DNA of 64,000 nt from Nilaparvata lugens (Eukaryota > Arthropoda > Insecta > Hemiptera > Delphacidae): the NCBI RefSeq assembly GCF_014356525.2, contig NC_052518.1, forward strand, positions 13,842,201 through 13,906,200, written 5' to 3'. Position 1 is the first letter of the stretch. Every line of letters starts with the position of its first letter. A program made the position numbers and the translations under genes. Of the stretch, positions 11,343 through 59,400 are shown in pieces. The notes under the pieces were generated by a model. That model had not been told where the DNA came from. It searched no databases and saw only the letters and a list, made by a program, of their open reading frames with translations.

Positions 11343-12117
11343 GTAAATACTTAATTGGAGCAAATACTTAAAATTGGATCCAGTACACATTAATTCTTTT
11401 TACAAAAACAATTGAAGTATATTACCTTATAGAAGAATTGGTTATAAATTATCACCACAGATATAAGCATTGTTAATTATTAAATTGTTAAATGCATCAA
11501 TGAAAATCATTAAGACCTATGAGTATACCTTATAAAATCATCTATATATCTCTAAAAGCAAATATACACTAAGATAATCATTCATCATTGAGGATCCTCA
11601 TTTGATTAATTTAATCAAATGGCTAAATGATGTAAGCCTAATTCATTTGCCTTTGCTTTAATCTGTTTATATTATTGTTATATTTAAACTATTGGTTAAC
11701 TTGGCCTGACTACCTCGATTTTTATCAGTACTTTTGTTATTTGAATTATATTCAGGATAGATTTTTTTTTGTATTTTTTAGTTCTTGTTATATTTTATTG
11801 TATTTATTTTCCAACTTCAATATATTTTATCTATTGTCATTATTATTTATTAATTTAAGTTTTGCTTGTTTTGAACTGTCCTTTAGTTCTGTTCAGTGAT
11901 GCTCCTGCAATGCGAACGTGACCTTGTTATCTAGGTCTTTGCATGCAGTATTTTATTTCGTGCATTAATTATGGTGTATTTTTGTAAAACAGTGTAGCTG
12001 TGCTAGATTACATTCCATCATCCTATAATGAGAATTAATACAATTAGTATTATCAGCAAGTTTCATATTTATTCGGTTAAAAAGTTCTCTTAAGTATTGT
12101 TTTATTATAATAGGAAA

Positions 12118-12912
12118 CGTAAGAAAAATCCAACCTAAAGAGCATGTACTTCTTCTAAAACCAACAAAATTGGAATTGGTAGGAGATAATGAGAAGCAGA
12201 GTAGTGAAAAAATAAGGAAAAGTCTGAAGGAAAACATTCCAAAGAAAGAAAATATAAGAGTAAAGAAAACTGTTAATGTTCGAGGCGGCGGCCTTCTTAT
12301 TGTTCTGGATACATTGGATGATAAGAAAAAAATACTAACAAACAAAAGCTTACAAAAAGGAGGGATAAAAATCATGGAGCCTGCAAACAAGAAGCCAAGG
12401 ATAATCTTGTACGATGTCCCATCAGATGTAAATAAAGAGGAGCTGTCAGAGATCATTTATGAAAATAATTTCTATAACTCGGGAATCCAAAAAGAAGACT
12501 TTGTCAAAGGCTGCGTCCCATCATTCAAGTTAGGCCCAAGAGATAAAGATACCCTTCATTGGGTGTTTGAATGCGATCCTGAAATAAGGAACTAATAATT
12601 AACAAGGTAAAGCTGTTTATCGACTTTACATGCTGCAAAGCAAGCGACTATACTGTAGCTCAGAGATGCTTCCGGTGCCATGGGTTCAATCACGTGATGA
12701 AGCATTGTAAAAAAGAACAGGATGTCTGCGGGCACTGTTCAGTTATAGGACATAATTCTAAAAACTGCCCTTCCGAAAAGGAAATTCCAACTTGTGTTAA
12801 TTGTAAAAAGAATAATAAGCCAGCTAATCATAAAGCCAATGACGCAAAATGCCCATGTTATAGAAGAGCACTGCAACAAGTTATTGATAGAACAAACTAT
12901 GGGATTGCTTAA
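12118..12912 (+). pseudogene. ORF1 of LINE A: Gag-like zinc-knuckle protein, broken
   Basis: The fragment aligns with the C-terminal two thirds of B's ORF1: the K-E-(H/N)-V-x-x-L-K-P start, the VRGGG block, PRIILYDV, the GPRDKDTLHWVFEC block, then three CCHC-type zinc knuckles (first CFRCHGFNHVMKHC, second CGHCSVIGHNSKNC, third with CVNC..H..C). Such knuckles bind nucleic acid in the Gag proteins of jockey/I-type LINEs. A frameshift near 12593 separates the part before the knuckles from the rest. The stop TAA at 12910-12912 overlaps the start of ORF2. Confidence 0.8.
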
Positions 12913-14842
12913 AAAAATGAAAAATAGGATATTGAAAAAAGAAACTCTAATTAAGCCTAGCATCAATAAAGAGAGCCGTCGACTATTGAAAAATCTCTAA
13001 AAAAGATAAATAAGCTACATGTAAATAAACAAACGTCAAAAAGTAGAGTATCATTAATTCAGAATTACGGTGAATATTCCGATATTAATTTAGCGTTTGC
13101 TTACGTAGGAGAAAATAAGATTCGAGTCTCAGATGGATTCTCGCACGTACTAAAGTCAAAATCGCTGACGCTAGAGGAGTGGTGTAGCCTTGAGCCAATT
13201 AGTCTACAAAATAAATGCTCGGCGATCTTACTGAAAACAATCAACACGCCTGACAGTAAACAATTAATTCGGAATTACTTGTTGCCCGTAAATGATTATA
13301 ATGCTCTAGAAGAAATTAAAAAAGTGCTATTGGAAATAAATGAATGGGCATCAATGAATTATCCACTTGTCGTAGGCATAGATGAATTCAGCCAGCTAGC
13401 AGATTTATCCTCAATTGATTTACTCAGTTTTATCTTATCAACTAATCATTTGAAATATATATTTTATCATAGGGGCACTAACAGCATGAATTTTCTCAAT
13501 ATTCCAGAACCAGATCGGCCAGAAGAAAAAGTATGCCCAAGAGGTTATCTACCAGAAGATAGCAAGCACCATAACTTTCTAAATTGCATGATTGAATTGA
13601 AAAATCTTTTACAGCAATATGATAAAATAAACGCAGATATTTTCAAAGAAGCTCTTTCAACACTTCGAACCGAAAATCTTCATGCTTCATCGTCGGTCTT
13701 CAGAGAAATTGAATTGAGGAGTATGAATGTTTACGATAATGAATTAAAAATGTTCCTTCTACCAACTACTTCAAAATATAGAATGGGATTCAGTATGGAG
13801 GGAGGCGGAGCTTACGTATCATTTGACAACAGTTCTCGCAGATTTAGAACCAATGAAAAATATATTATGGTTAGTCGAGACACTCAAGTGATGCTTAATG
13901 AGGAACTGTTGGATGCTGTTTCGAAAATTGATATATCTCGATGCAAGATACCGAGAATCAGATGGATTGATGGAGTTCCAGGGAGCGGAAAACACATCTA
14001 ATTGTTGATAAACATCGACCAATGGAAGACCTCATACTAACTCAAACAAGAGCCGCAATCAAAGGAATAAGATCAACTATACAGGAGAAACACGGAAATG
14101 AATTCAACTCAATCATCAATTCAATTACAGAACCGTGACGTCGTTTCTAATTAATGGCTGCCACAAAAAATATAAGCGCGTATTCATCGATGAAGCTGTC
14201 CTTATGCACGCCGGCTTCGTGGGATTCGTCTCTGAGCTGACAGGCGCAGACGAGATAGTACTGGTTGGAGACTCAAAACAAATATCTCACATCGAGAGAA
14301 GTGGTTTACCAGCAGTCTGGAAAAATATTTCTGTTTTCGCGGATCCGGATTCTTACCAATCAGTAACCAACAGGTGTCCAATGGATGTGTGCTGTCTGTT
14401 GTCTAACTACTACAATGATATCTGCACTACAAATAAAATTATTCGATCAATTGAACCAACAATAACTAACGGAGAACCTCACAACCTACAACCACAAACT
14501 TTAATCCTCACATTCACGCAATCAGAAAAACAAATGGTACTGGAAGCTGTTAAAAACAAGGCTCCCGCTGGCTCATTAACAATACTAACTATACATGAAG
14601 CTCAGGGTTTAACGTTTAGAGATGTTATCCTAGTGAGGAAGAATACTAAACCACTCAAGATTTACAATAGCATTCAGCACATAATAGTAGCACTTAGTAG
14701 GCATACCAACTCATTCAGATATTTAACAGTTGGAGAGCAAGATCTCATGCTGTCATTAACTCAAAAAATACAATCAGTTGAGGACAAGGATATCTACAAT
14801 TGGCACACAAATAATTATAAACACAAAAACAAAAATGGCTGA
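12899..14842 (+). pseudogene. ORF2 of LINE A: SF1 helicase, frameshifted
   Basis: The start codon at 12899 overlaps the ORF1 stop by 14 nt, as in B. An early frameshift lies near 12990. The frame then runs to Walker A (GVPGSGK, about 13973-13993), where one missing A shifts the frame just before the expected Thr. A further shift sits near 14120. After it come Walker B (FIDEA with VLMHAGF), motif III (VGDSKQI), an RCPMDV motif, motif V (HEAQG) and motif VI (ALSRHT). All motifs line up in order with B ORF2. The stop TGA at 14840-14842 overlaps ORF3. The damage is a few indels, so the loss of function looks recent relative to the A-B split. Confidence 0.85.
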
Positions 14843-17775
14843 TTTGATGGAGGATTTGGATTTATTAGACATTGAAGACTTTTCGATTCCAAATTCACAA
14901 GATGTCAACAATAATATCCAACCTTTCAACTTGAAAATCATCAATTTCAACATCAGAAGCTACAATAAAAATTTTGAAGAATTTCTTATTCAACTGGAAG
15001 ACCTGAACGTGGATTTCGACGTGATAGTCTTAACGGAATGCTGGATTGCTGGTGGTGTTTCCTTGAAATCAATTAATAATTATACCTGCCACAAAACAGA
15101 AAACAATATCTACAGAATGATGGAGTAATAATTTATGTCAAATCCGACTATTTTGTCGAAATAAAAGAAATTGCAGTTAGGCAAGCCAACTGTTTGAATA
15201 TGCATTTAAAAATTGGGAAAGATACTTTTGTTATAACAGCGTTATATAGATCTCCATCACACTTGGACTTAACAGAATTTCTCATTGATCTGAGGCAGAT
15301 TTTGAATGATAATGGAAAGTATTTTCACATCGTTCTAGGAGATTTGAACATCAACACAAAAGAACCAAATCAGCACAGGCAACTGGAAGACTATGATAAT
15401 CTACTCAGTGAATATGGATTCCTACATTGTATAAAGCAGGCAACTCGTATTGGAAATAATAGCGCTTCATGTATAGATCATATTCTGATAAACTTAAAAA
15501 AGATATAATACCAATAGTTTTCCCAAATTCTATTACAGATCATTTTATAACTATTCTGGGAATTAAATATGATGCGGTGGAACACAATCACAACAGAAGA
15601 AAACCTACTATGAAAGTATTGATTATAATAAACTTTCATTAGCACTAACAAATGAGACCTGGAATTCCGTGTACCTGCAGGAATGCGCTGATAGTGCTTT
15701 GAAGAAAATGATAGAAATACTGAAGAAATACACAGAAGAATGTAAAGTTATTAATAGAGTATCGCACACAAAAAGAAAAATTAAGCCTTGGATTACAAAT
15801 GGATTAATTACATCAATAAGGAAGAGAGATAAATTACACAGACAAAGCAAGAATAATACAGCGAATCTACAGCTTAGAGAGTATTATAGAAGGTACAGAA
15901 ATCTACTAACAACTGTAATAGAAAATGCTAAGAAACAATACTTTTCAAGGCGATTTGAAACTTCCAGCAACTCTAAGCAAACATGGGAAGTAATAAGAGA
16001 ATAACTGAAGTGCAACGGCCAAGAACACAAATCCACCAAATCAACTTGGAAGGGAGAGAATTGAAATTGGGAGATGATGATAAAGATATGGCAAATTCTT
16101 TCAATGAATTTTTTATTAGTATTGGATCAAAACTGGCCCAGGACATTCTAAATAGCGATTGTAATGGCGCAGATGAGCATGCGGCAGCTGATCAGATAGT
16201 CTGCCGGTCATTATTCTTTACACCTGTCAGTGAGGACGAAATGATAAAAATCATTAATAGTCTTAAAGCTAATAGTGCACCTGGACTCGATAATTTAAAA
16301 CCAGATTTTTTCAAACAGAATAATACGATACTTGCCAAGCCTTTAACACATATTGCAAACAAAATTTTTGAGGAAGGTGTTTTTCCACAGTGTCTTAAGG
16401 AAGCTGTCATTTGTCCAATCTTCAAAACAGGAGATAAGAAAGATATGAATTGCTACAGACCCATATCATTACTAAGTACATTATCAAAAATTTTTGAAAA
16501 GTGTATCAAAACAAGACTGATCAGCTTTCTTGAAAAAAATAATCTTCTATCGCCAAACCAATATGGTTTTAGATCTAGTCGCAGTACAAATGATGCTATC
16601 CACTATGTGACCACTCAGATTGCCGATAAAATAAACACTGAAGAGAAACCATTGGCAGTATTCTTAGATTTAAAGAAGGCTTTTGATACGGTGTCACATG
16701 ACATTCTTCTTTCAAGGCTTGATAACTATGGAATAAGAGGAGTCGCATGGAATCTTTTCAGAGCTACCTATCAAACCGAACACAATGTGTCAGAGTCAAT
16801 GGATGTATAAGCAACAAGCTGACTGTAAAGTTTGGAGTGCCACAAGGAACAGTACTAGGACCAATTCTTTTTCTTCTCTACATAAACCCATTATGCAACA
16901 TGGAAATTAATGGATCAATCACCACCTTTGCAGATGATACTGTTCTACTGTTCTCTGAACCGACCTGGGAGATGACCTGGAGAGAAACCGAGACTGGACT
17001 TCAGAGGGTGTCTCGCTGGTTGAGTGAAAATCTGCTAACATTGAACCATGAGAAAACCTTCTTTCTGACTTTTTCGGCGACTCAACATGGACAGCCAACA
17101 GGAGATGAGATAGTAATCAAGAATCAACGGAATAACACTTCATACACAGTTCGCAGGAAACAGTCACAGAAATACCTGGGAGTTACAATGGACTCTTTTC
17201 TGCGCTGGGATCATCATCTCAATGAATTATGCGGGAGACTGAGGAAGACTATCTGCAGATTCAGGATTCTGAGGACACTGGTCGACAAGGGATGTCTAAG
17301 AGTTATCTACTTCTCTCTAGCTCAGTCCCTCATGCTGTATGGGATTGTGGGATGGGGAGGTGCAAGCTTCTTGCACATCGAACCGCTCCTCAGGGTACAG
17401 AAGCTGATCATGAGGGTCATCAACCAGAAGCCTCCACGCTATTCATCAGACCAGCTATTCAATGAGTTTGACGTGATGGATCCAAGACAGCTTTACTTCA
17501 AGGAGATACTATGCAGATTACACAAGAACCCAACAACATTTCAAACCAGAAACCACAACCACAACACCAGATACAGGAATCTTCTCATCACTAGTGTTGC
17601 AAGGAAGGCACTATACCAGAGACATTTCAATCATTTAGCACCAAAATTATATAATCTACTTCCTGCAAACTTTAAGCAGATTAATCATCCTAGAAAGTTC
17701 AAAACAATAGTACACAATTGGTTGATGAGCAAAGGAAGACAGAACATAGAAAACATTATTTCAAATAACAACTAA
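14835..17775 (+). pseudogene. ORF3 of LINE A: APE endonuclease-reverse transcriptase, broken
   Basis: The ATG at 14835 overlaps the helicase stop (ATGGCTGA). The N-terminal endonuclease keeps NFNIRSYN, LTECW, YRSPS, GDLNIN and SCIDHIL. The reverse transcriptase keeps YRPISLL, FLDLKKAFD (motif A), GVPQGTVLGP and FADDT (catalytic DD). The C-terminal tail ends HLAPKLYNLLP...NN. Frame breaks occur near 15115, 15505, 15990 and 16755. At the last one A lacks a base that copy C retains. This would be the enzyme that nicks target DNA and copies element RNA. Confidence 0.88.
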
Positions 17776-17834
17776 CCACCTAATGACTTACTAAACACTA
17801 ACTAATTAATAATACGCACAAAAAAAACAACAAA

Positions 17835-17872
17835 ACCTACTCTAGAACATGGTACGCCATAGTGGAGTAGGT
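17835..17872 (+). other. 3' UTR stem-loop of LINE A
   Basis: ACCTACTC (17835-17842) pairs with GAGTAGGT (17865-17872). Inside it, ATGG pairs with CCAT around a TACG tetraloop. The same position in B has ATGG(GAAA)CCAT. A conserved 3' hairpin is where LINE reverse transcriptases often recognise their RNA. Confidence 0.6.
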
Positions 17873-18142
17873 CAATTTCCACACACAAAAAACTAAACAA
17901 GTAGAGGACACATTATAAGAATTTTTTTGTAACTAACTATTGTATGTAATATTGTAATTTATCTAATATTTTGTGTAATTGATGTTGTAGTTTTAGTTTT
18001 TTTGGGAAATAAACATTCATTTATTATTATTATTATTATTTATTATTATTCTTATTTGCTATCTTTTTTTTAGTTTTGTGCGCTGTACTGTTGTTGTAAA
18101 TTGGTTGCGAAATAAAGAATCTTATCTTATCTTATCTTATCT

Positions 18143-21336: not shown

Positions 21337-22862
21337 TTTTTTTTTTTTTTTTAAGATTACATCCTAAAGACTCCAGTCATGGAGTATAAGACAAGTCATG
21401 TTATTACATAATAATTCTAACACTAAGTAGTTCAACCTAGTTTAGGTTTGAAAGGAATTCTTGTACACTATAAAAAGCTCTATCAACTAAATATTTTTTA
21501 ATTTGTTTTTTGAAAATCTTCAAATCATCATTACTTTTCAAGATTTGAGGTAGCTTGTTATAAAATTTCCTACCAATATAATCTGGTTTTTGTTCAAATA
21601 ACCTACTATTGTGACCCATTATATGATAATCTGCTCTGTTTCGCGTATTATACTCATGAACATCTGAATTCTGGATCACACCACTCGTTTTCACATGCAT
21701 TACAACTTCATATACATACAAAGATGGCACAGTTAATAGACCAAGCTTTTTAAATAAAGGCTTACAAGAGTCTAACCTATTCACTTTCTCTATACATCTG
21801 AGTGCCTTCTTTTGAATCTTAAACACCCTGTCATATTTTGTTGAGATGAATTACCCCATACTAAAATAGCATACCTAATATGATATAGTATAAGTCCATG
21901 GTAAACAGTTAACAGTAGTTTTTTATCATTCAGCCTAGCAAGCTGCCGCAGGACAAATACCCCAGATGATATCTTATTACATATCCTCTCAATGTAAGGA
22001 TGCCATGTTAATTTCCTGTCCAATAAAATTCCCAAGAATGCTACTTTCTCTTCTTGGTCTAATTCATTTTCCTCTACAAACACATTTATTTCTCTATCCT
22101 CTACTGAATTATATTTACTTTTGAATTGTAGGAATTGACATTTCTTACTATTTATTGTTAATTGCCTTTGCTTCAAGAATTGGACAATTGACTGTACTCC
22201 AGTAAAAGCATTTATTTCTAGACTATCTAATAAATAATTGTTAAAGATAAGCGATGTGTCATCAGCAAACAACAGAGCTCTGTGATCTTTCAACTCTTTT
22301 GGTAATTGGTTCACATACAACAGAAACAGTAAGGGACCCAGAATTGAGCCTTGAGGTACTCCAGCCTGGACCTCCAGTTTTTGAGATTTAATTTTTACTA
22401 TTTCATTCCCATCCACCTTGGTAAGCTCAACACACTGGTTTCTACCTATGAGATATGATTCAAACCATTTTAGTTCTATACCATTCACACCTACAGTTTT
22501 TAGTATTTCCAATAATATTCTATGGTTCACACAATCAAAAGCTTTGGATAAATCAAGAAATATTGCGGCTGCCTTCTCACCTGAATCTATTATATCTATT
22601 AGTCTTTCCACAAGGGATACTATTGCAGTCTTAGTAGATTTCCCTTTCTGGAACCCATGCTGTTCATCACATATGAAATTAATTTCTTCCAGGTGCATCA
22701 ATAACCTATTTAAAACTACTCTTTCAAAAATTTTACTTATTACATTTAGAATACTAATGGGTCTATAATTTTCAACTCTTTCAGAATCACCGCTCTTGAG
22801 ACTGTAAGTTGAAAGCTTCATTGATGACACAAGATAAGTGTCGATTGAATTCAATTGAATCA
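21337..22862 (-). mobile_element. LINE E, 5'-truncated, minus strand, nested in LINE D
   Basis: A T-run at 21337-21352 (the poly(A) tail of a minus-strand insert), a 3' UTR, then reverse-transcriptase coding up to about 22810. There is no endonuclease, so the copy is 5'-truncated. It lies between the two ORFs of LINE D. Possible imperfect target duplication: ATAATTTTCGAA (about 21322) against ATAATTCGAA (about 22862). Confidence 0.75.
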
Positions 22863-23128: not shown

Positions 23129-25949
23129 ATGTCTGATTACATCTCTTTAATGCAGACTTCAATGAAAGGCGACAACTCCTCCTTGAAAATATGTCATACA
23201 AACATTCAATCTTTGCCAGCGCATTTTGACTTTTTTAAAATCATGTTATCATCAGTTCCTCTAGATATTGTAGTATTGAGTGAGTCTTGGCTTAAACCTA
23301 GTTTGCAGTCCTCAGCTTTTGCTATTCCTGAATATTCACTATTTAGAAACGACAGAATTAATAAGGGTGGTGGGGGAGTAGCTATCTATGTAAGATCCTC
23401 TTTTGCGGCTCGAGTTATAGTGTGTTCGGAGCCGGTGTACTCTCATTCTCCCGAATTCCTCCTCCTTGATGTGAGAGTGGGTGGCGAGTCTGTTTTGGTC
23501 GCTGGTGTTTATCGCCCGCCTAGGGCAGGTAGTTTCCACACATCCGAGGATGCATTAGCTAGAGTTATGCATAGATACAACCACATAATTATTGTTGGCG
23601 ACTTAAATGCTGATCTGATTAAAGATTTTCCTGAAGTAAGACAGATTAGAGCTTTTGCTGACACATTCAACTTCACTATTTTACCTAGTGGTCCGACATT
23701 CCATACAGCAACATGTGATTCACTTCTCGACCTAGCAATTGTAAGTGATTATTCTACTGTTATTACAAATGGACAAGCTCGATGTAACGATTTTTCAGCA
23801 CATGATATAATATATTTTACATACAATCTGAAGCATGAGACCAATTACAATAAAACATTTGAATATCTAGACTTCCGTAACTTTGATTTAGATTCGTGTC
23901 TGGAAGCTGCAGTGTGTCTCCCATGGACATTTTGAATACAACAGATATTGACGATAAGATCAACACTTTCAATTCATTCATTTTTTCCATTTTTGATGAT
24001 TTTGCGCCAGTTAAATCAGTAACAATAAAAAGTAAACCGTGTCCCTGGATAACAAGTGATATAATACAGATTAGGAAGGAAAGATACAGGGCAAGGCGTC
24101 TGTATCTCCGAACGCATAGGGAGTCTGACTTAGCTCGCTTCAAAAGTTTGCGAAACAAAGTCAAGTCTATGTGTAGGAACTCCAAGTTAAGATATTTCCA
24201 TACTCAGTTCGAAAGTGGCGGAAACGCCTCGGTACTTTGGTCGAGATTGAGAAATTTAGGAGCTGTGCCTGTTAAGAGTGCATCAGGAGAGCTGGCGGTC
24301 TCACCTAGCGACTTGAATAGATACTTTTGTACTCCTCATCTACCATCAGGTCTCCCTGATTACCGAACAATTTCTCAAATGATAAATTTGTCGAATCCTC
24401 AAATTCTTGATGATCAGTTCCATTTTTCTCACGTGACTCCTAATCATATTGCTTACACTATATCAAATATGAATAAGAACAGCAAGGGTATTGATATGAT
24501 TCCAATCTCGTTCTATAAAAAAATAATGCCAGTTCTTTTACCATCAATTACGCATAAATATTTAATTTCTCTATTCAAATGGGTATTTTCCCGAATTTTT
24601 GGAAGTATTCTATTATAAGACCAATCTCAAAGATATCTAATCCTTCCAATCCATCAGACTTCCGACCCATTAACATACTCTGTTCCATTTCCAAAGCTTT
24701 AGAGAGAATTGTTCATGGGCAGTTAACAGCTCATCTCAGTTCAATTAACTATTTCCATGAGTTCCAGTCAGGATTCAGAGCCAATTTCAGCACTTCCACT
24801 GCACTCTTGAAGGTTACCGACGATGTAAGATCTGTAATGGATCGAGGCATGCTGACAGCAATGGTTTCTTTTGATTTCAGCAAGGCATTTGATAAGATCT
24901 CTCATTCGATTCTTATTCATAAATTAAAAAATCATTGTCATCTTTCACCTCTAACACTTTCTTGGTTCTCTTCATATTTGAGGGGTCGGTTCCAGGCTGT
25001 CATGGTTCCTCTGGTATAACTGAGGTGGACTGGATGCCTGTTTCAGCTGGAGTGCCTCAGGGATCGGTACTTGGACCTCTCCTTTTCTCCATTTACATAA
25101 ATAACATAACAGAAATCATTGCTCATTCTTCATTCCACCTGTTTGCTGACGATCTAGTGTTTTATAAACATTTCAACCCGGGTGATTGTGTGGAGGCTGT
25201 CACGCGGATGAACCTGGATGTCTCTTCACTCTCTGTGTGGACCCGATCGCATTGCCTGTCGTTGAATACACAGAAAACGAAATGCACTGTTGTTGGTTCA
25301 CAAAGACGAATTAGACAAGGAGCGATTGGTATACCTTCTGTAACCTTGGATGGAGTGGAACTCATATATGATGATAGGATCAAGCTGCTTGGCATGCTGA
25401 TTGACAACGCACTCACTTGGGAGGTTCATGTGAATGCTGTAGTGAGAAAGGTGTTTGCAGGGATGCATCAAATAAAAAGGTTGAGGAGATTTTTGCCGGT
25501 GGGAGTGAGGAAGACTCTGGTTCAGGCGCTTATTCTCCCCCATTTCGATTATTGTTCAATGGTATACAATGGTGTTTCTGGAGAGCTCAATGGCAGGCTT
25601 CAAAGGGCATCAAACTATGCTCTGCGATTTATTTTTGATGCTCGATGGAATGACCACGTAACACCCCTGTACAGAGAACTTGATTGGCTAAAATTAAAAA
25701 TTAGAGCAGAGACGATTGTATTTTATACTCTGCCAAACCTACAAACTAATTGTGGGAGGAACTGGTCTGGAATATTTGAGAGAAGGACTTGTACTTTTCA
25801 TTGAGGTTCATCAGAGGGATACTCGGTCTCACCGCTTCTTTCTTCAGATACCTCAACACCGATCGGCAATTTTCGGAGCTTCGTTCTGTGTTACGGCTTC
25901 TCGTGAATGGAATGCTCTGCCACTTTATGACTTAGCCCATGGCTGGTAG
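23129..25949 (+). pseudogene. LINE D ORF2: endonuclease-reverse transcriptase, broken
   Basis: The APE-type endonuclease occupies about the first 230 codons: CHTNIQSLPAH, LSESWL, GGGGVAIYV, GVYRPPR, VGDLNAD, SLLDLAIVS and a final SAHD. After a frameshift near 23925 follow the linker and [36 protein letters not shown] and FADDLVF. The C-terminal part ends with SHRFFLQIP...WNALP. Further breaks lie near 24590, 24990 and 25795. The clade (CR1/R1/jockey group) is not resolved. Confidence 0.85.
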
Positions 25950-33300: not shown

Positions 33301-33456
33301 GATAACATATGTTCAGATGCTTATTTTCATATGATTTATTTATTATTCATTATTTTTGGTTGAAGTTATTTAATTTTAATCACATTTCCTTTTAATTTTA
33401 TCAAAAATAGGTTTATTCAAGTCAGATTGAATTATATTTAATAATTTTATAATCAG

Positions 33457-34503
33457 GCTTGATAACTATGGAATAAGAGGAGTCGCATGGAATCTCTTCA
33501 AGAGCTACCTATCAAACCGAACACAATGTGTCAGAGTCAATGGATGTATAAGCAACAAGCTGACTGTAAAGTTTGGAGTGCCACAAGGAACAGTACTAGG
33601 ACCAATTCTTTTTCTTCTCTACATAAATCCATTATGCAACATGGAAATTTATGGATCAATCACCACCTTTGCAGATGATACTGTTCTACTGTTCTCTGAA
33701 CCGACCTGGGAGATGACCTGGAGAGAAGCCGAGACTGGACTTCAGAGGGTGTCTCGCTGGTTGAGTGAAAATCTGCTAACATTGAACCATGAGAAAACCT
33801 TCTTTCTGACTTTTTCGGCGACTCAACATGGACAGCCAACAGGAGATGAGATATTAATCAAGAATCAACGGAATAACACTTCATACACAGTTCACAGGAA
33901 ACAGTCACAGAAATACCTGGGAGTTACTATGGACTCTTTTCTGCGCTGGGATCATCATCTCAATGCGGGAGACTGAGGAAGACCATCTACAGATTCAGGA
34001 TTCTGAGGACACTGGTCGACAAGGGATGTCTAAGGGTTATCTACTTCTCTCTAGCACAGTCCCTCATGCTGTATGGGATTGTGGGATGGGGAGGTGCAAG
34101 CTTCTTGCACATCGAACCGCTCCTCAGGGTGCAGAAGCTGATCATGAGGGTCATCAACCAGAAGCCTCCACGCTATTCATCAGACCAGCTATTCAACGAG
34201 TTTGACGTGATGGATCCAAGACAGCTTTACTCCAAGGAGACACTATGCAGATTACACAAGAACCCAACAACATTTCAAACCAGAAACCACAACACCAGAT
34301 ACAGGAATCTTCTCATCACCAGTGTTGCAAGGAAGGAACTATACCAGAGACATTTCAATCATTTAACACCAAAATTATATATAATCTACTTCCTGCAAAC
34401 TTTAAACAGATTAATCATCCTAGAAAGTTCAAAACAATAGTACACAATTGGTTGATGAGCAAAGGAAAACAGAACATAGAAAACATTATTTCAAATAACA
34501 ACT
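33457..34503 (+). pseudogene. LINE C reverse transcriptase, C-terminal part
   Basis: Covers RT from YGIRGVAWNLF through FGVPQGTVLGP, FADDTVLLF and the C-terminal tail. Frame breaks: a 7-nt deletion between two ATG triplets near 33964 (relative to A) and another shift near 34375. At the position where A has lost a base (A near 16755), C keeps it, so the NLFKSYLSNRT stretch reads through. Confidence 0.85.
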
Positions 34504-34755
34504 AATCACCTAATGGCTTACTAAACACTAACTAATTAATAATACGCACAAAAAACTAACAAAACCTACTCTAGAACATGGTACGCCATAGTGGAGTAGG
34601 TCAATTTCCACACAGAAAAAACTAAACAAGTAGAGGACACATTATAAGAATTTTTTGTAACTAACTATTGTATGTAATATTGTAATTTATTTAATATTTT
34701 GTTTCATTGATGTTGTAGTTTTAGTTTTTTGGGGAAATAAACATTTATTTATTTA
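33457..34755 (+). mobile_element. Helicase-LINE copy C (5'-truncated)
   Basis: Starts abruptly within the RT domain (GGCTTGATAACTATGGAATA) and runs through the 3' UTR with its hairpin (34564-34601) to AATAAACATTTATTTATTT. It is nearly identical to 16720-18020 of copy A, so both derive from a recently active lineage. It sits in an intron of the NYN ribonuclease gene, on the opposite strand. Confidence 0.88.
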
Positions 34756-34869
34756 TGTATTAAATTATTCCTATTTAATTTTGCAGTTTTATATTATTTT
34801 TCTTATCTTCATAAGAAGATTGTAGGCATATACATCGTTTATGTTCCAACTTTCAGGCCGATTTTTGTT

Positions 34870-46815: not shown

Positions 46816-46849
46816 TCAGTCGTAATCAGACCTCCGTAGAGTGCAGATC
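46816..46849 (+). promoter_or_regulatory. Internal Inr + DPE promoter of LINE B
   Basis: TCAGTC (46816-46821) matches the arthropod initiator TCAKTY, with +1 at A46818. AGATC at 46845-46849 is exactly +28 to +32 and matches the downstream promoter element RGWYV. Inr plus DPE at this spacing is how TATA-less arthropod LINEs such as jockey and I start transcription at their own first base. Confidence 0.7.
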
Positions 46850-47080
46850 GTAGCGAATAATTAGTGTAGAGTAGTATTAGTAGTGAAAGTGGAACAAGTT
46901 GTGTCAACACCAACTGTCAACAACCAGCAGTCCAGTCAGCAGTTTTTCACAGTGAAAACTACTCAACGTTTTTTTTTCTGAGTGAAAAGTGTGTCACCAA
47001 ATTTTTCGTTTGAACATTGCTCTCTTTAAAAATTAGGTTCTGTTTCTTTAAAAAAACAATTATCAAACCATCAATAAATT

Positions 47081-47107
47081 ATGGTGTTTTGGATCTATCA
47101 GCCTTAA
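47081..47107 (+). promoter_or_regulatory. uORF in the LINE B leader
   Basis: The only AUG between the predicted start of transcription and ORF1 opens an 8-codon uORF (MVFWIYQP, TAA 47105-47107), which ends one base before the ORF1 ATG (TAAGATG). Ribosomes would have to reinitiate or leak past it, matching the coupled style of the later ORFs. Confidence 0.6.
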
Positions 47108-47108
47108 G

Positions 47109-48389
47109 ATGATCCATTCGCCAATAAATACGCCAACAAAACTACCACCATCCGCGCAGCTAGAATACGAGGAAGAGGAGGAAAAGGATGAAATGAATAT
47201 GCCTCCCGAATTGCCACCGAAAAGTAAAAACGATAGCGGAATACGTTTCGAGGTACGTTCTCTTAAAAATATACAAGAGAAATTTCTGAAATGGGGGAGT
47301 GAAATTTTCTTGAAAAAGAAAGTATCCAGAGAGGACTATGATTCGTTTTTAAATGTGTGCAATGAACTTAACATAAGTATCGAAAGAATAGACGTTAAGC
47401 AACATATACAAGATAACAACGCGGAAATGTTTGGAAAAATTCACACTCTGGAGCAGAGTGTGAATAAACTAGCAAGTGAAGTTGCAAAAAGCCATAATAA
47501 GCCGATCTCATTTGCTGAGGCCGTGCAACTGCCAAAGAAGAGGACCGCACCTTCTACATTATCGAGTGCCGCCTCCACTGCTGCAGCCAGGGAGTCTCCG
47601 CCCCGGACCAAGAAGCTGTCGCCCAAGGAGAATGTGATCATCCTGAAGCCAGCAAAAATAAATGGAACGGAAAAGGAACAAAGCGGAAAAATTCGAGAAA
47701 CAATAAAGAAGAACATCACCCGTGAACAAAATTTGAACATTAAAAAAGCTGTTGATGTCCGTGGTGGGGGTGTGCTGTTGGTGCTTCACCCAAGGGCCAA
47801 TAAGGAAAATGTTTTGGGTGATAAGGTCCTGCAACATCCAAACATAAAGGTAAGCGAGCCACAATCCAAATTGCCAAGAATAATTCTGTATCACGTCGCT
47901 GCAGATATAACTGCTGCTGAATTGGCAAACGATGTGTATGAGAGAAATCTCGAGTCATCGTCACTGAGTAGGGAAAATTTCTTGAAAAACTTTAGGCCGA
48001 TTTTTAAAATAGGACCGAAAAACAAAAACACCGTGCACTGGGTAGTGGAGTGCACTGGTGAATTAAGAAAAGAATTTATTAACAAATCGCGGATTGGTAT
48101 TGATTGGAGGGTGTGCCGAGTTGGAGACTATGTTGCCGTCTCTCGTTGCTTCAAGTGCCAAAAAATTGGACATATCAGTAAGCATTGCACTCAAGCACAA
48201 AACACCTGTGCTCACTGTTCCACTACAGGACATGATGTTAAAGAGTGCCCTAATAGAGACAAAAAGCCCTCATGTTTAAATTGCCGCAATGATAAAAAAG
48301 CTTTCGATCACAAAGTAGGTGACAGAGAGTGCCCTTCCTATCAAAAAGCGTTACAACAAATAATTGATAGAACTGATTATGGAATCTGA
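47109..48389 (+). CDS. LINE B ORF1: Gag-like zinc-knuckle protein
   Basis: 426 residues. The acidic, Pro-rich N-terminus is followed by a region with heptad-like leucines (about 90-125), a basic Ser/Ala-rich linker (about 140-175), and the VRGGG...PRIILYHV block (about 215-260), which looks like an RRM-like fold. Three zinc knuckles end the protein: C347-C350-H355-C360, C367-C370-H375-C380 and C389-C392-H401-C408. The family role is to coat element RNA and help nucleic-acid annealing. The start is the first ATG after the uORF. The stop TGA overlaps the helicase start by 11 nt. Confidence 0.88.
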   Translation: MIHSPINTPTKLPPSAQLEYEEEEEKDEMNMPPELPPKSKNDSGIRFEVRSLKNIQEKFLKWGSEIFLKKKVSREDYDSFLNVCNELNISIERIDVKQHIQDNNAEMFGKIHTLEQSVNKLASEVAKSHNKPISFAEAVQLPKKRTAPSTLSSAASTAAARESPPRTKKLSPKENVIILKPAKINGTEKEQSGKIRETIKKNITREQNLNIKKAVDVRGGGVLLVLHPRANKENVLGDKVLQHPNIKVSEPQSKLPRIILYHVAADITAAELANDVYERNLESSSLSRENFLKNFRPIFKIGPKNKNTVHWVVECTGELRKEFINKSRIGIDWRVCRVGDYVAVSRCFKCQKIGHISKHCTQAQNTCAHCSTTGHDVKECPNRDKKPSCLNCRNDKKAFDHKVGDRECPSYQKALQQIIDRTDYGI

Positions 48390-50313
48390 AAGAAAAATAT
48401 TCAATATACTGAGGATAGATAAAAATAATAGTGATAGTAAAATCAAGCAATCAACCCAACACAAAATGATTACTTTAAATTCCATCCTTAACAAAATTGT
48501 TAGTTTCTGCGTAACAACTAATACTGATAAAAGTAAGATAAGTCTGGTTTATAATTTTGGTGAGAGGGTTGATGTTATGATATCTTTTACAAAAATAGGA
48601 AATAGTATTAAAACATCCAAAGGACTCTCTCTGCTTAGAAATAAAAAATATTTCTCTCTTGAAGAGTGGAATCGCCTGAATGTGTTACGAGATTCTAATT
48701 GTATAAGAGTTTTGTTTTCTGATAAAAACATTCCTATTTTCATATTAAATGATGGTGAAAATGGGGTACTTATTGATCTTTTGAATAGAATAAATGATTG
48801 GAGTAAATTCAATTACCCTTTGATTATAGGAATTGATTCTTTTAACAATCTTGGTGAAACTTATTTTGATATTCCTGCCACTGAACTCTTGAGTACTGTC
48901 ATAGGAGCTAGAGATTTGAAGTTTATTTTTTATTATCGAGGTTATTGTGAAATTAATTTTCTTAATATACCTAAGCTATCTGATAGTCCGGGAGTTGAGT
49001 ACCCTGTAGGATTCTTTGAAGGTAATAATAAACGTGAAGCATTCATAAACTCTATGATTGAATTACGGACCCTACTTCAAAACACTGATAACGAAAATGC
49101 TAAAATATATAAAAATATTCTTCTTAGGATCACGCATAGAAACATGTCAATATCAGGTGATGAACTAATAAGCGTCCTGAATAACAATATGAACATCTAT
49201 GATAATAATTTGAAAAGATTCCTATTCAAAACAAACTCTAAATACCGAATGGGATATTGCTTGGAGCAGGGTGGAAGTTACGTAGAATTTCAAGAGGATA
49301 CTTTAAAATTCTCTACTAAAGAACGATATGTTTTAGTCACACGTAATACTACACTTATGCTGAATAGCGAATTAATAAAAACTATAAATAGAATAACTCT
49401 TCATGAGTGTAAACTTCCTAAAATAAAGTGGTGTGACGGTGTTCCCGGCTGTGGTAAATCTTACTTTATAGTCTCGCATCATGAGCCTGGCAAGGATCTA
49501 GTACTCACTCAAACACGGGCAGGTATTAAAGCAATCCGTGAAACTGTCATTGAAAGGTATGGTCGAAAACATTGTAATCGTCTTAAGCTTGATTACAGGA
49601 CAGTTGGCTCATATATAATAAATCATAATCAGAATAAAACATACAATAGAGTTTTTATTGATGAAGCTCTACTTATGCATGCGGGTTACATCGGTTTTAT
49701 TGCTAACTTGAGTAGGGCCTCAGAAATAATTGTAGTTGGTGACGCAAACCAAATACCCTACATTGAGAGAAGTAATTATGCCACAAGATGGCATAAAATT
49801 TCAGAATTCTGCGAACCTTTTACAAAACAAACGGTAACTCGTAGATGTCCTATCGATGTTTGTTTTGTCCTTTCCACTGTCTATGAAAATATTACGACGC
49901 TTAATGAAAGAGCTATCTCAATTCTGCCTACTTACAGAAATGGGGAATACCATCTGATACAACCCGACACTTTGATATTAACATTCACCCAAGAAGAAAA
50001 ACTTATGGTGGGTGATACTATAAAGTGGAGAGAGGATGTTGCACTTCACACAATCCACGAAGCACAAGGGCTAACTCATAAAAATGTTATTCTAATCAGA
50101 ATTAAGTACAAGGAGAATGAAATCTATAACAGCATGCCCCATGCGATTGTTGCCTTGTCTAGACACACTGAAACTTTCAGGTATTTAACAACCAGTCTGG
50201 TAGATGATGCTGTGGACAAACTAATTAAAAAACTTAAATTCATAGATAGTGAGGGGCTTGTTGAATGGAACAAGGAAAAGAGAAGTGGACCTGATGATAT
50301 AAGTTATGAGTGA
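48379..50313 (+). CDS. LINE B ORF2: superfamily 1 (viral-type) helicase
   Basis: 644 residues from ATG 48379. Core motifs in order: Walker A GVPGCGKS (354-361), Walker B VFIDEALLMHAG (D428-E429), motif III VVGDANQIP (G454-D455, Q458), RRCPIDV (488-494), motif V HEAQG (560-564) and motif VI ALSRHT (592-597, R595). The RCPxDV and VGDxxQI patterns are those of the alphavirus-like RNA-virus helicase family (Pfam Viral_helicase1), not Pif1/Helitron helicases. The ATPase would translocate on nucleic acid. The first ~340 residues are unassigned but conserved in copy A (for example YPLIIGID and FLNIP). Open throughout with no disabling change. It overlaps ORF1 by 11 nt and ORF3 by 8 nt. Confidence 0.9.
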   Translation: MESERKIFNILRIDKNNSDSKIKQSTQHKMITLNSILNKIVSFCVTTNTDKSKISLVYNFGERVDVMISFTKIGNSIKTSKGLSLLRNKKYFSLEEWNRLNVLRDSNCIRVLFSDKNIPIFILNDGENGVLIDLLNRINDWSKFNYPLIIGIDSFNNLGETYFDIPATELLSTVIGARDLKFIFYYRGYCEINFLNIPKLSDSPGVEYPVGFFEGNNKREAFINSMIELRTLLQNTDNENAKIYKNILLRITHRNMSISGDELISVLNNNMNIYDNNLKRFLFKTNSKYRMGYCLEQGGSYVEFQEDTLKFSTKERYVLVTRNTTLMLNSELIKTINRITLHECKLPKIKWCDGVPGCGKSYFIVSHHEPGKDLVLTQTRAGIKAIRETVIERYGRKHCNRLKLDYRTVGSYIINHNQNKTYNRVFIDEALLMHAGYIGFIANLSRASEIIVVGDANQIPYIERSNYATRWHKISEFCEPFTKQTVTRRCPIDVCFVLSTVYENITTLNERAISILPTYRNGEYHLIQPDTLILTFTQEEKLMVGDTIKWREDVALHTIHEAQGLTHKNVILIRIKYKENEIYNSMPHAIVALSRHTETFRYLTTSLVDDAVDKLIKKLKFIDSEGLVEWNKEKRSGPDDISYE

Positions 50314-53256
50314 CACTGAAGAGGTTCTTAATATTTTAGAAACAGAAAATGAAACAGATGTAATCGACGATTATTTGAACTATCACTTTCACGAGGACAG
50401 AAATAAAGATGCTGAGTGTTTCAATATTATGTCTATGAATATACGTAGTTTGAATGCTAATTTCGATCAGTTTATTTGCTGCCTCAATGAATTGAAAACT
50501 GATATTCACATTATAATATTAACTGAGACCTGGTTGACTGCAGATATGCCGTTCATTTTCAACATTCCTGGATATACGGCAATAAATAAGTACACTAAAC
50601 AGAATAAATGTGATGGATTATGCATGTACATAAAAGATTGCATAGGATTCAATGAAGTTTCACTCGATATCTCTGATGCCAATGTAGTTAGTGCTGACTT
50701 AAGAATTGATGATTTTATTGTGAAGGTGATTGGGGTTTATAGATCACCAAGTAATCAAAATATTGATAATTTTCTTAATAGTCTGAGTAATGAAATCAGT
50801 AAAATTCCTAATGGAATAAATGTATGTGTGGCGGGAGACATGAATATAAATACACATTCAACTAGTGTTCCTGTTCAAGATTATCTGCATATTTTCAATA
50901 GTAATGGCTATAAGTCTTACATAAATGGTGATACCCGAGTAACAACCACAACAAATTCTTGCATTGACCACATTTTTTATAAAAATTCAGGCAACCATTC
51001 TATGTTCACTAAAGGAGTTATATTTAGGACAACCATAACTGACCACTACGCGGTTGTACTGAACTTGGTGAAGGTCCCTATCAATAAGGATAATAGAAAC
51101 GTATTGATAAACACATTAACTAGAACCAACTATCATGCACTATTGGAACGCATAAGGAATGAAGATTGGGGAGAAATCTATACCGTGAATGGAAGCATTG
51201 ACACTATTATGGATAAATTTGTCGATCGTTTGACCAGTCTCATCAATCAATGCAAGAAGGTAAAAGTGATACCTAACAGACTTCGTCCCCTGAAGCCCTG
51301 GATATCTGAAGGCATCATAAGATCAATAATCACGCGGGACAAAATGCATTCTAGACTCAGAAGAGATCCTAATAACAATATCTTAAAGAATGAATATAAG
51401 GCTTATCGTAATGGTTTGAATAAGATCATAAATCATGCAAAGGAAGTCTACTATAAAGGGAAAATTGAAAATTGTAATAACAACAGCATGAAGTTGTGGA
51501 AGTGCATAAACGAGGTTATAGGTGAGGCCAGTATCAAGGAAAAGAGTACTGAACTTGATGCTCACTCCCTCAACAATTATTTCACAAATGTGGGTAAATT
51601 ACAAGCTCAAACTATCAATATCCCTGATAATACTGGTGATCGATTTCCTGCAATACAGATCGATAATACGTTTTTTATGAGACCAACGTGCCCAGTTGAA
51701 GTTGAGGCAACTATTAAAAATCTAAAGAACAACTGCAGTCCTGGTATTGATGGTCTAGGTAATATTACGCTGAAGAAAATAGCCAATTTTATATCTCAAC
51801 CTCTCGCTTTCATTTTTAATAGATGCTTTGAGGAGGGATATTTTCCCGAGCACCTCAAATCAGCCAAAATAAAACCTCTATTCAAACAAGGTGACCCGAC
51901 TAATCCCTGTAATTATAGACCGATTAGTCTTATCAGCAACCTTGCTAAAATAATGGAGAAACTAATAAAGTCAAGAGTTGTTTCTTTCTTGAATCTTAAC
52001 AAAATAATCAACAAGAACCAATTCGGTTTCCAAAATAGTAAAAGTACATCTGACGCTCTAATAAAATTCATCAATACTTTATCTGATAAAATAAACTCCA
52101 ATAAGAAAACTATTGCGGTCTTCCTAGATATACGCAAAGCTTTTGATACAATACCTCATAATACTTTGTTCAATAAACTAGAGTCCTATGGTTTCAGAGG
52201 AGTCTCGCTTAAATTGTTCAAAAGCTATCTGAGTAATAGAACCCAGTCCCTAACCATAAATGATCAATCTAGTGTAACTAACTTAACTTCTTATGGTCTT
52301 CCTCAAGGTACTGTACTTTCTCCCATCCTTTTCATACTCTATGTAAATGACTTTTTAAATTTAAGACTTCTAAACTCAACTGTGATATCCTTTGCAGATG
52401 ATACTGCAGCTATTTTTCACGGAAATTCATGGAATGAAGTTCATACTATAGCTGAAAATAATATGCTTTTAATTAAGAAGTGGTTAGATAAGAATACCTT
52501 AAGTTTAAATATTGAAAAAACTAATTACATTACTTTCTCTGCAAATAGAGTAGGGCAGCCTAACGAGAATCAAGATTTGAGACTCCATTCTCAGTGCAAT
52601 TTAAACTTGGGTAATTGTGATTGTCCCACCATTAAAAAAGTCAATAATACTAAGTATTTGGGAATTATAATTGATGAAAACCTTAAATGGGATGTTCATA
52701 TTAAATACATATGTAGAAAAATTAGATATTTATCCTTTAAATTTTACCAAGTTAACAGAATTCTTAATAAGAACCACCTGAAAATGATGTATCATGCTCT
52801 GTCAAGTCAATTCTGCAGTATGGCATAGTTGTTTGGGGAGGCTGTTTCAACTGTCATATTGCTGAATTATTTGTAGCACAAAAACTGATAATTAAAACTA
52901 TATTAAACAAACCCAGGCTCTATCCAACGGATATGGTTTTTAGTGATTTTGAGGTCATGACTATACGTCAATTATACATAAAAACCGTAATTGAGTACTT
53001 AATAAAATATAGATCCGATTTTCCTCTCACAATAAACTCTACTCTTAATTATTATAATCTAAGGGCCACTGCTAACAAATATGTAACCTATAACACTAAT
53101 ATTGAATGTATAAGGAGGCAATTAATTTACATAGGTACTAAAATAATAAACCTCATTCCGAATCACTTTCTCATGGACAATAAGATCAGCGGAAAAATTA
53201 AACTGGATATAAAAAACTGGACATACAGTAATTTCTTCTTCCATTTAGATATATGA
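50306..53256 (+). pseudogene. LINE B ORF3: APE endonuclease-reverse transcriptase, one frameshift
   Basis: ATG 50306 overlaps the helicase stop (ATGAGTGA). The endonuclease (about residues 35-255) shows SMNIRSLNAN, LTETWL, YRSPSNQ, AGDMNIN, SCIDHIF and TDHYAVV. RT: NYRPISLI, VFLDIRKAFDT (D608), LPQGTVLSPILF, SFADDTAAIF (D698, D699) and YLGIIIDENLKWD. The frame stops at 52828, but the next frame continues from about 52815 (YGIVVWGG onward) to TGA at 53254-53256, so a single base near 52805 is lost or gained. The enzyme would nick genomic DNA and copy the RNA. Only the C-terminal ~150 residues are affected, so whether it is functional is uncertain. Confidence 0.9.
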
Positions 53257-53421
53257 CTCGAGATTTCTGCTCCAGCATTTTTTTTTTTTTTTTTCATTAG
53301 TTTTTTCATTTTTCAGTGGACTCGCTTACCTTTATTTTGAGTACCTATTCCTCTGTTTTCTTCCTTCCCCCCATTTCTCCCTTCCTTTTTTCCTCATTAC
53401 TTCTCTTCTCTTCTTTGCCTG

Positions 53422-53452
53422 CCTATTACATGGGAAACCATAGTTGGCTAGG
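53422..53452 (+). other. 3' UTR stem-loop of LINE B
   Basis: ACATGG(GAAA)CCATAGT with outer CCTA/TAGG pairing. Same place and inner stem as the hairpins in copies A and C, but with a GAAA loop in place of TACG. Confidence 0.6.
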
Positions 53453-53620
53453 TATCTTCCTCTCTTTTTTCTCTTCTCCAACACACCCAAACACTAAGCC
53501 CATGGTTTTTTATATTTGTAACATTTTATTGTGTTTTATTTGTTTCGTAAATCTTTGTAATTTTGTTTTGTCTTGTTTTGTGTGTTTTTAATAAATTGAA
53601 AATTGAAAAAATTGAAAAAT

Positions 53621-56404: not shown

Positions 56405-59400
56405 TAATACATGAATAAATGAGATAAATAAATAATATATTTATTACCAATTGATTTACAATAAACATTTATCATTGTCACAAGTAGCCTATACAATCAA
56501 CAATACACAGCTAAAACACAATTAGCCTACATCGAAAATTTACTTCTTAAACAAGATTACAAACTAAGTTTACACAGCCTAGATCATACACAATAGTAAC
56601 AGATTTACATAGATTATTAGGCCTTTCCTAACTCTATCTTTATATTGGGTGGCATCTAGGTCTCTTAACAATGACGGAAGGGCATTATAAAATCTGAGAG
56701 ATTGGGCCCTGAAACTTCTCAATGATGCGCTGGAAGAGCACCATTCGACACCTATATTACTTGCCCCTCTTGTATTGTATGTATGCCTATTAGAGTTGAG
56801 GCTAAATTTATCCAGGTTCTTTTTGACATAACACAGACATTCCAGGACATACATAGAAGGAAGAGTCAGAATTTTATTCTCAATAAACAATGATCTTCAA
56901 TGACTACGTGGCTCTTCATTGTTTAATATTCTAATGGCTCTCTTCTGTAGCAGGGAAAGTTTACCAGCCAAAGGACTATTTCCCCACAAAATTACAGCAT
57001 AGGCTAGGTGACTGTGTATAATCGCAAAGTAAACTGTTTTCAAGACCTCCACTGTCACACTTCCAGCCAACCTTCTCAACATAAAAAGCCCTCTTAGTAA
57101 TCTATTATAAATATTTCCTATATGGGTATTCCATTTAAGATTAAATTGCAAAAAAACTCCGAGGAACTGGGTAGATTCAATGTTTGGGCTGTTGGCTAGA
57201 CTGAAATTTATAGTAGTGGTTTTTTTATCATTAATAGCTAACTCATTTGCCTTACTCCAACTGTCAATCAAAAGATTACATTGTTCTAAATTGGACTTTG
57301 CATCTGTCTGATTTCCATCCCTAATAATAACTGCCAGGTCATCTGCGTATAAAAATATTGTTCTTCAATTGCCTTCCAAGTAAGTAGGTAGGCTAAGTCA
57401 TTAATATAAATTAAGAACAGTAGGCTATTGTCCCAGTATAGATCCCTGGGGTACCCCTCGTTCTACTGATAAGAAATCAGAACTCAGACCACAATGGTAA
57501 ACTGACTGGAACCTCCCCTCTAGATATGTTTTGAAAAACTTCAATACTTCATGATCAATATTGTAGGCAGAAAGTTTTGTTAATAGTATTTCATGCGAGA
57601 CCGTATCAAAAGCACATGAATAATCGTACATTCTGGCAACATTGCTCTTCTTGTCCTCAATTCCGTTCTTTACAAACTCCACAAACTCAGAGTTGTCCCA
57701 TATGGCAGATGTTGTGCTCGAATTACCTCTAAACCCAAATTGACTTGAACTAAAAAGTTTATTCTCTTCAAAATACTGTACAAGAGGTTCACTAACTAGG
57801 TATTCAAAAGCCTTACCAAAAATTGGAATGATGGTTATGGGTCGAAAGTTTCTGACGTCACTTTTAAAGCCTATCTTATGTATTGGTAATACTTTACCAT
57901 ATTTTAGGAAATCTGGGTAGATGCAGTTATTTATACATTCATTGAACAGTTAGGTGACAATTTCCGCTATGTAAGGGGCTGCAATCTTTATTATTAATGA
58001 TTTTAAACCATATACATCATACGATTCGCTATTTTTCAACTTCATCAAGGTATTGTACACTTTGGTAACTGTGAATTCTGGGAACTTGAATTTTTCACTT
58101 ATACATCTATTATGATTAAAAAGTGGCACATCATTTCTACTATTACACTCAGAGACATTATAATTTATATTGTGTCTATTTACAAAAAAAAAATATTGAA
58201 CATATCAGGAGATATATCTCTTCCTGCCGGCTCTTTCTTATCTTTCCTATTCAAAGAGTTATTTATTATATCCCACATCGCCTTAGCCTTATTATTAGAA
58301 CTACCTATAAAATTTTTGTTGTATTCAAGCTTAGTATTATGTATTGCAGCTCTATATTTATTCTTATAATATTTGTATTCTGCAATATACCTCTCTATTC
58401 CATTATCTCTATACGTTCTATACAATGTCAGACACTAAGTTCTAAGCTTCTTTAACTCTGCATTATACCATCTGTTTATTTGACCATTTAAGCGTCCCTT
58501 GCACTTTATTTTTCTACTTGGGAAGGCTACTTCAACCTGTTTCATGAAATGATGGAAAAAATACTCTACCTTTTCAGTGATTGTTTTGAAAGTATAAATT
58601 GGCAACCAATTGAAGTTATTCAATAAGTGACAGAAATGTTGACAGTGGGAACTATTTATTACTCTAAGAAATCTATATGATGCAACAGGGCTTGGTACTT
58701 GACCATCATTGTTAATTTTCAGCACAACTGCATCATGATCAGACTTGACTGTATGCAGAACTGATGAGATGCGATTCTCCTCTTGAATTGTTGTGAAAAT
58801 GTTATCTATACATGTTCCACTATTATCTCTTCCTGGCCTGGTAATTTCAAAGGTTACAGAGTGTAAGTTAAATGCTTCAGTCAGAGCCAGTACACTCCTT
58901 GTAATTCTATTGCTTTCTTTGATATTGATATTGAAGTCTCCTGACACTATCAATGACTTATTTCCACAATTTAGCGAACATAATACATCCTCAAACACAG
59001 AGAAGAACAGCTCAAGATTAGTGTCAGGTCTTTATATGGACAAACATATTACATTAAGGATAGGAATCTCAATAGCTGATATTTCACAAACATGCTCTAC
59101 AGACAACTCATTAATTTTATTTAATTTTATAGTATCAAGACAATTCTTAACTATAATAATTGTTCCTCCTCTAGTCATCTTGGCTCTACAATAGTAACTT
59201 GCAATCTTATATCCAGGAATACCTATAGACTCAACCTCAGCTCTATTTACTAACCAATGCTCGCTTACACATATTATATCGAATGAACTCTCCTTTATCA
59301 AACATGTCAGTTCATCATAACTACTATTAAATCCTTGAGTGTTCCAACCAACAATAGAGATATACCTTTTACATGATTCAGTTTTTTCTTATGTATGTTG

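Follow-up and report, generated by a model that had tools for sequence, protein, structure and literature searches.

The window analysed here, a 64,000-nucleotide stretch of the Nilaparvata lugens genome (NC_052518.1, positions 13,842,201 to 13,906,200), contains at positions 46817-53620 one non-LTR (long terminal repeat) retrotransposon, or long interspersed nuclear element (LINE). Three overlapping open reading frames (ORFs) on the + strand encode a gag-like protein, a superfamily 1 (SF1) helicase and an endonuclease-reverse transcriptase (EN-RT). Its parts are as follows.

46817-53620, + strand: whole element, a non-LTR retrotransposon of family A; ends common to copies L013 and L014, and tail features
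46817-47108, + strand: 5' untranslated region, starting with (T)CAGTC; RGWYV site resembling a downstream promoter element (DPE) at +28 to +32 (46845-46849)
47109-48389, + strand: ORF1, gag-like, 426 amino acids; zinc knuckle at residues 346-362 (48144-48194)
48379-48389, + strand: overlap of the gag and helicase ORFs, 11 nucleotides
48379-50313, + strand: ORF2, SF1 helicase, 644 amino acids counted from its ATG
48460-48999, + strand: N-terminal domain of ORF2 (residues 28-207), macrodomain-like by predicted fold, which sequence methods do not confirm
49000-50283, + strand: part of ORF2 that aligns with the solved tomato mosaic virus helicase (residues 208-635)
49435-50190, + strand: Pfam core of ORF2 (residues 353-604), Viral_helicase1
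50306-50313, + strand: overlap of the helicase ORF and ORF3, 8 nucleotides
50306-52828, + strand: ORF3, 840 amino acids, with endonuclease (residues 42-227) and reverse transcriptase (534-789); the frame ends early in the window copy
52829-53620, + strand: out-of-frame remainder of the ORF3 region, then 3' untranslated region and tail

The ends of the element match those of two near-identical copies, L013 (46817-53619) and L014 (46815-53620), and in several copies TTGAA repeats and a run of A are present at the 3' end. According to Pfam, ORF3 combines a reverse transcriptase (RVT_1, E 9.9e-37) with an AP (apurinic/apyrimidinic)-type endonuclease (Exo_endo_phos, E 7.1e-6), and the element is thus an APE-type non-LTR retrotransposon; the zf-CCHC match in ORF1 (E 8.9e-4, 19.7 bits) was slightly below the cut-off of 20.8. 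ORF3 comprises 840 amino acids in the window copy versus 983 in L009, L013, L014 and L017, indicating that the window copy lost the frame near its 3' end, while all three ORFs are open, at 426, 644 and 983 amino acids, in 3 of the copies read.

A first-pass annotation, made from the sequence alone, had placed a separate 644-codon ORF at 48379-50313 between zinc-knuckle gag and APE-RT ORFs and assigned it to an RNA-virus-type SF1 helicase. The ORF coordinates and Pfam bear this out: Viral_helicase1 (PF01443), expected over residues 345-600, was found over residues 353-604 (E 3.5e-37, 128.9 bits against a cut-off of 21). The best match among solved structures was the tobamovirus replicase helicase (E 1.8e-32), followed by the chikungunya nsP2 helicase (E 2.3e-12), so that profile and structure matches place the protein in the tobamo/virga type. 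A protein search returned 27 homologues, one of them from the planthopper Laodelphax striatellus, and 26 of these were aligned with the window protein, the shorter P0023 being left out. The key residues of the SF1 motifs named earlier are invariant in all 27 rows (G354, P356, G357, G359, K360; D428, E429; G454, D455, Q458; R489, C490, P491, D493; H560, E561, Q563, G564; R595, H596), and conservation spans the entire ORF. By a profile match over the cut-off and by its invariant motifs, ORF2 is an alphavirus-like SF1 helicase. A chance similarity or a mis-called helicase is ruled out by the Pfam profile, the structure matches, the structural alignment and the motifs. In contrast to the replicase helicases of virga-like viruses and tobamoviruses, it is a stand-alone retrotransposon protein, Pfam having found neither a methyltransferase nor a polymerase domain in the helicase ORF proteins; neither the Helitron-type Pif1 profile nor a Rep domain was among the Pfam matches of the element proteins. 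A pattern search of IMG/VR gave 23 matches but no relative.

A search of the genome with PF01443 yielded 807 first-look candidates, and all of the 150 scored were over the cut-off. Twenty-six further copies were read, most of the first 20 having been selected because their helicase frame is long and open. They group into at least five families by DNA similarity: A (the window element, L009-L018 and L027), B (L019-L021, L029, L032), C (L022-L024, L028, and L030, assigned by protein similarity), D (L025, L026, L031 and window positions 12109-18034) and E (L034, L035). The last two copies were not separated into two families, being 94-97% identical. Helicase protein identity to family A is 43-49% for B-D and 47-58%, by piece, for E. 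The helicase is followed by the reverse transcriptase in 26/26 further copies, and gag lies upstream in 25 of them; the fetched stretch of L032 begins at the gag end, and in L028 the end of the helicase is interrupted by another inserted element. At least five N. lugens families thus have the helicase as the second of three cistrons, and the co-occurrence of gag, helicase and reverse transcriptase in one element, which the first-pass annotation had proposed to check, was found in the source genome. In family A, five copies of nearly full length share 98.0-99.9% identity with the window copy, so that this family must have moved recently. Two odd reverse transcriptases were traced to other causes: the one in L027 (63% protein identity) is not foreign, the DNA being 96% identical with broken frames, and the 24% match in L028 sits in the inserted element and is not its own.

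The second helicase LINE of the window (12109-18034) belongs to family D and is 98.9% identical to L031, with broken frames and a 5' end shorter than that of L025. Like the frame loss in ORF3, it goes beyond the first-pass annotation.

The family-A layout was also counted from coordinates, using 67 of the 75 helicase rows listed (the last eight, fragments, were left out) and 60 of the 104 gag rows listed (the best 40 and 20 chosen for a nearby helicase row). Among the matches listed, gag lies directly upstream in 33 of the 38 helicase copies that keep the 5' part, 25 of the 38 having it at the exact overlap distance. Five of the 38 have no gag row among the matches listed, but one of them, L010, keeps the 3' third of gag. 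Conversely, 38 of the best 40 gag rows keep the 3' end, 27 with a helicase row downstream and 11 without one among the matches listed; one of these 11 (C8:43739980) does match the helicase in the PF01443 search.

The three ORFs overlap at both junctions in four families (A-D). The helicase ATG lies within the last gag codons, the overlap being 11 nucleotides in A and 14 in B, C and L025 of D. At the second junction the ORF3 ATG falls shortly before the helicase stop, with an overlap of 8 nucleotides in A, B and D and 14 in C. In family E, the gag end carries the same TTATGG. At the protein level, Tyr-Gly and one to three further residues form the C-terminal end of 22 of the 27 gag homologues (the exceptions being P0029, a shorter gene model, and the four weakest matches), and wherever the DNA was readable the Tyr-Gly codons contain the helicase ATG. 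The overlaps suggest coupled translation, and reinitiation in other LINEs is cited by Morozov et al. 2017 (PMC5563155).

One gag homologue, P0046, comes from the carpenter bee Xylocopa violacea; it is 35% identical over 58% of the query and has the same Tyr-Gly end.

Purifying selection acts on the helicase ORF at a level near that of ORF3. Among 11 copies, all of family A, 24 nonsynonymous and 25 synonymous changes were counted in the helicase (rate ratio 0.27, p 1e-5), and in four copies with an open ORF3 the ratio of the helicase was 0.23, compared with 0.18 for ORF3 of the same copies. Across ten elements (45 pairs), identity between gag proteins correlates with that between helicases at r 0.92. 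Six gag matches lie on contigs equal in length to those of six helicase matches, and these are taken to be the same contigs. The strongly supported nodes of the gag and helicase trees agree; the two trees place B, C and D in different orders, with weak support.

Helicase-bearing LINEs are already known, both in kind and in this species. Dozens of N. lugens sequences in which an SF1 helicase ORF is very near to or overlaps the EN-RT ORF of Jockey-like LINEs were reported by Morozov et al. 2017 (PMC5563155), together with the same kind of LINE, with transcripts, in other Hemiptera and Orthoptera. In lepidopteran TRAS elements of the R1 clade an SF1 helicase is fused C-terminally (Lazareva et al. 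2015, PMC4686597), and both kinds are restated by Morozov et al. 2019 (PMC6338049). The supposition in the first-pass annotation that no such LINE clade had been described is thus incorrect. The present element resembles the Jockey-like LINEs of PMC5563155 in its separate SF1 helicase ORF, placed before and overlapping the EN-RT ORF. In that paper, however, the helicase is labelled ORF1, and the protein of contig AOSB01072940 is single-domain and overlaps ORF2 by 2 nucleotides, whereas here gag lies upstream, so that the helicase is not the first ORF, the overlaps are of 8-14 nucleotides, and an additional domain is predicted to fold before the helicase. The text of PMC5563155 that was examined, figures aside, does not mention gag upstream of the helicase, nor does a word search find 'three ORF' or 'zinc knuckle'. 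Judged by the examined text of the earlier papers, three features look new: the placing of the helicase between gag and RT, its overlap with gag, and the N-terminal domain. With three cistrons, the published ORF1 label of the helicase has to be corrected, and gag before the helicase reads as a correction to the 2017 description and not as the mark of a different kind of element. TRAS shares with it a virus-type SF1 helicase in a LINE, but there the helicase is fused behind the reverse transcriptase, while here it is a separate ORF before EN-RT; the TRAS and Jockey helicases also stand on separate branches of the 2017 tree (PMC5563155). The name Jockey-related for the reverse transcriptase is that of PMC5563155; our own tree (33 rows, quick method), which holds no named Jockey row, places the window reverse transcriptase with P0055-P0057, and families B-D together elsewhere.

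We consider it probable that this is a recently mobile, Jockey-like N. lugens LINE whose single RNA carries gag, a helicase acquired in the distant past from a virga/tobamo-like RNA virus, and EN-RT as three cistrons, with coupled translation and a helicase that acts in cis. ORF2 and ORF3 would be translated by termination-reinitiation at the overlapping start and stop sites, and the helicase would assemble with gag and the reverse transcriptase on the element's own RNA, where it may unwind RNA duplexes or RNA:cDNA hybrids during target-primed reverse transcription. If the product worked only in trans, looser retention per copy would be expected, and ORF3-like selection on the helicase therefore fits action in cis. 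Here a retrotransposon that is still mobile retains a part of the replication machinery of an RNA virus, with selection maintaining it in divergent families, and whether a viral helicase assists target-primed reverse transcription becomes testable.

Several observations weigh against this interpretation. The substitutions are few, and all 11 family-A copies counted have open helicase frames; the gag of five open family-A copies shows only 2 + 2 changes. Outside family A the constraint is weaker, with ratios of 0.36-0.45 in B and D pairs and a ratio above 1 for L029 paired with L019 and L021. L028 gave 0.64-0.68 against the C copies, where its helicase frame runs into the inserted element; these values and its gag ratio of 0.87 were set aside on account of that insertion. 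A target-site duplication is clear in L014 only (10 bp), and none was found at the window copy. No RNA structure beyond chance was found at the junctions, no z-score being below -0.81 in four stretches (two before, two after).

The main rival, or an additional role, is silencing suppression. As Lazareva and Morozov propose, the helicase might act mainly in trans, as a suppressor of silencing of the element by small interfering or PIWI-interacting RNAs. According to PMC5563155, the helicase domain of a Plutella TRAS is a weak suppressor of RNA silencing in leaves of Nicotiana benthamiana, and the helicase regions of tobamoviruses are silencing suppressors. Nevertheless, per-copy selection near the ORF3 level fits a cis-acting part better, and the full retention of ATPase and helicase motifs in 27/27 rows suggests catalysis and not just small-RNA binding. 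Suppression as the main function thus appears rather unlikely, though the cis-acting helicase may possibly interfere with small-RNA silencing as a further role. That the helicase guards the host or the element from RNA viruses, by blocking viral replication or promoting viral cDNA, was proposed in PMC5563155 and PMC6338049, and it does resemble the helicases of insect virga-like viruses; however, it travels in a mobile element with many near-identical copies, for which a benefit to the host is unnecessary, and such a role seems improbable.

On the origin of the helicase, the first-pass annotation had allowed either direction of transfer. The evidence is best read as capture from a virus. The reverse, from LINE to virus, is compatible with pairwise similarity alone, but this type of helicase is widespread in virus replicases (705 viral models matched at E <= 0.001) and the published trees set the LINE helicases beside insect virga-like viruses (PMC5563155), so that this direction is very improbable. 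An endogenous viral insertion lying by chance beside LINE pieces, which two helicase-like regions in one window might have suggested, is refuted by the repeated gag-helicase-RT layout, as the same order and overlaps recur in five families and 26 copies, and hardly any weight is left to it.

The captured module may have been larger than a helicase. The approximately 180 residues before the helicase (28-207) are confidently predicted to adopt a macrodomain-like fold, and the only significant viral match of this predicted domain lies inside a replicase that also matches the helicase. The LINE may thus have taken a two-domain replicase piece, the N-terminal domain together with the helicase, although sequence methods do not confirm it. 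A macro profile was absent from the Pfam matches of the 27 helicase ORF members and from the NCBIfam matches. In hhalign the profile of the domain reached a probability of 0.1 against Escherichia coli YmdB, no better than 5 shuffles or 2 unrelated proteins. In an alignment by eye, the ADP-ribose-binding Asn and the Gly-rich loop are not kept (ISFA and SKG versus VNAAN and GGG of YmdB). In TRAS, a spacer of more than 300 amino acids without known relatives precedes the helicase (PMC4686597), comparable in size to what lies ahead of the Pfam core in the present ORF2. We tentatively suggest, regarding it as a nearly even matter, that the LINE captured one contiguous part of a virga-like replicase, comprising a degenerate macrodomain-like domain and the SF1 helicase, which it retains as the second of three translationally coupled ORFs, and that the TRAS spacer may be the same domain. 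The additional domain provides a handle on the nature of the captured module. No description of a macrodomain in a LINE was found among the literature matches listed, and the word 'macro' does not occur in the searched text of PMC5563155 or PMC4686597.

The 5' start of the element, (T)CAGTC with a DPE-like RGWYV, is a possible internal promoter. Such a site was present at the 5' end in 5 of 26 stretches scanned (the window, L009, L014, L016 and L017). Of 164 TCAGT sites in the window, 3 have such a DPE, the 5' site of the element among them. The 5' starts of families B-D are unlike that of family A.

Other LINE sequences were also noted. The family-A copy at 5630-6979 of L012 has its ORF3 region partly tandem-duplicated. 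In the window, positions 33455-34761 hold a fragment from the 3' part of family D (96% identity to L031). At 21892-22800, 24552-25564 and 57020-58063 lie RT-like remnants that belong to other LINEs and share 27-32% identity with the reverse transcriptase of the element.

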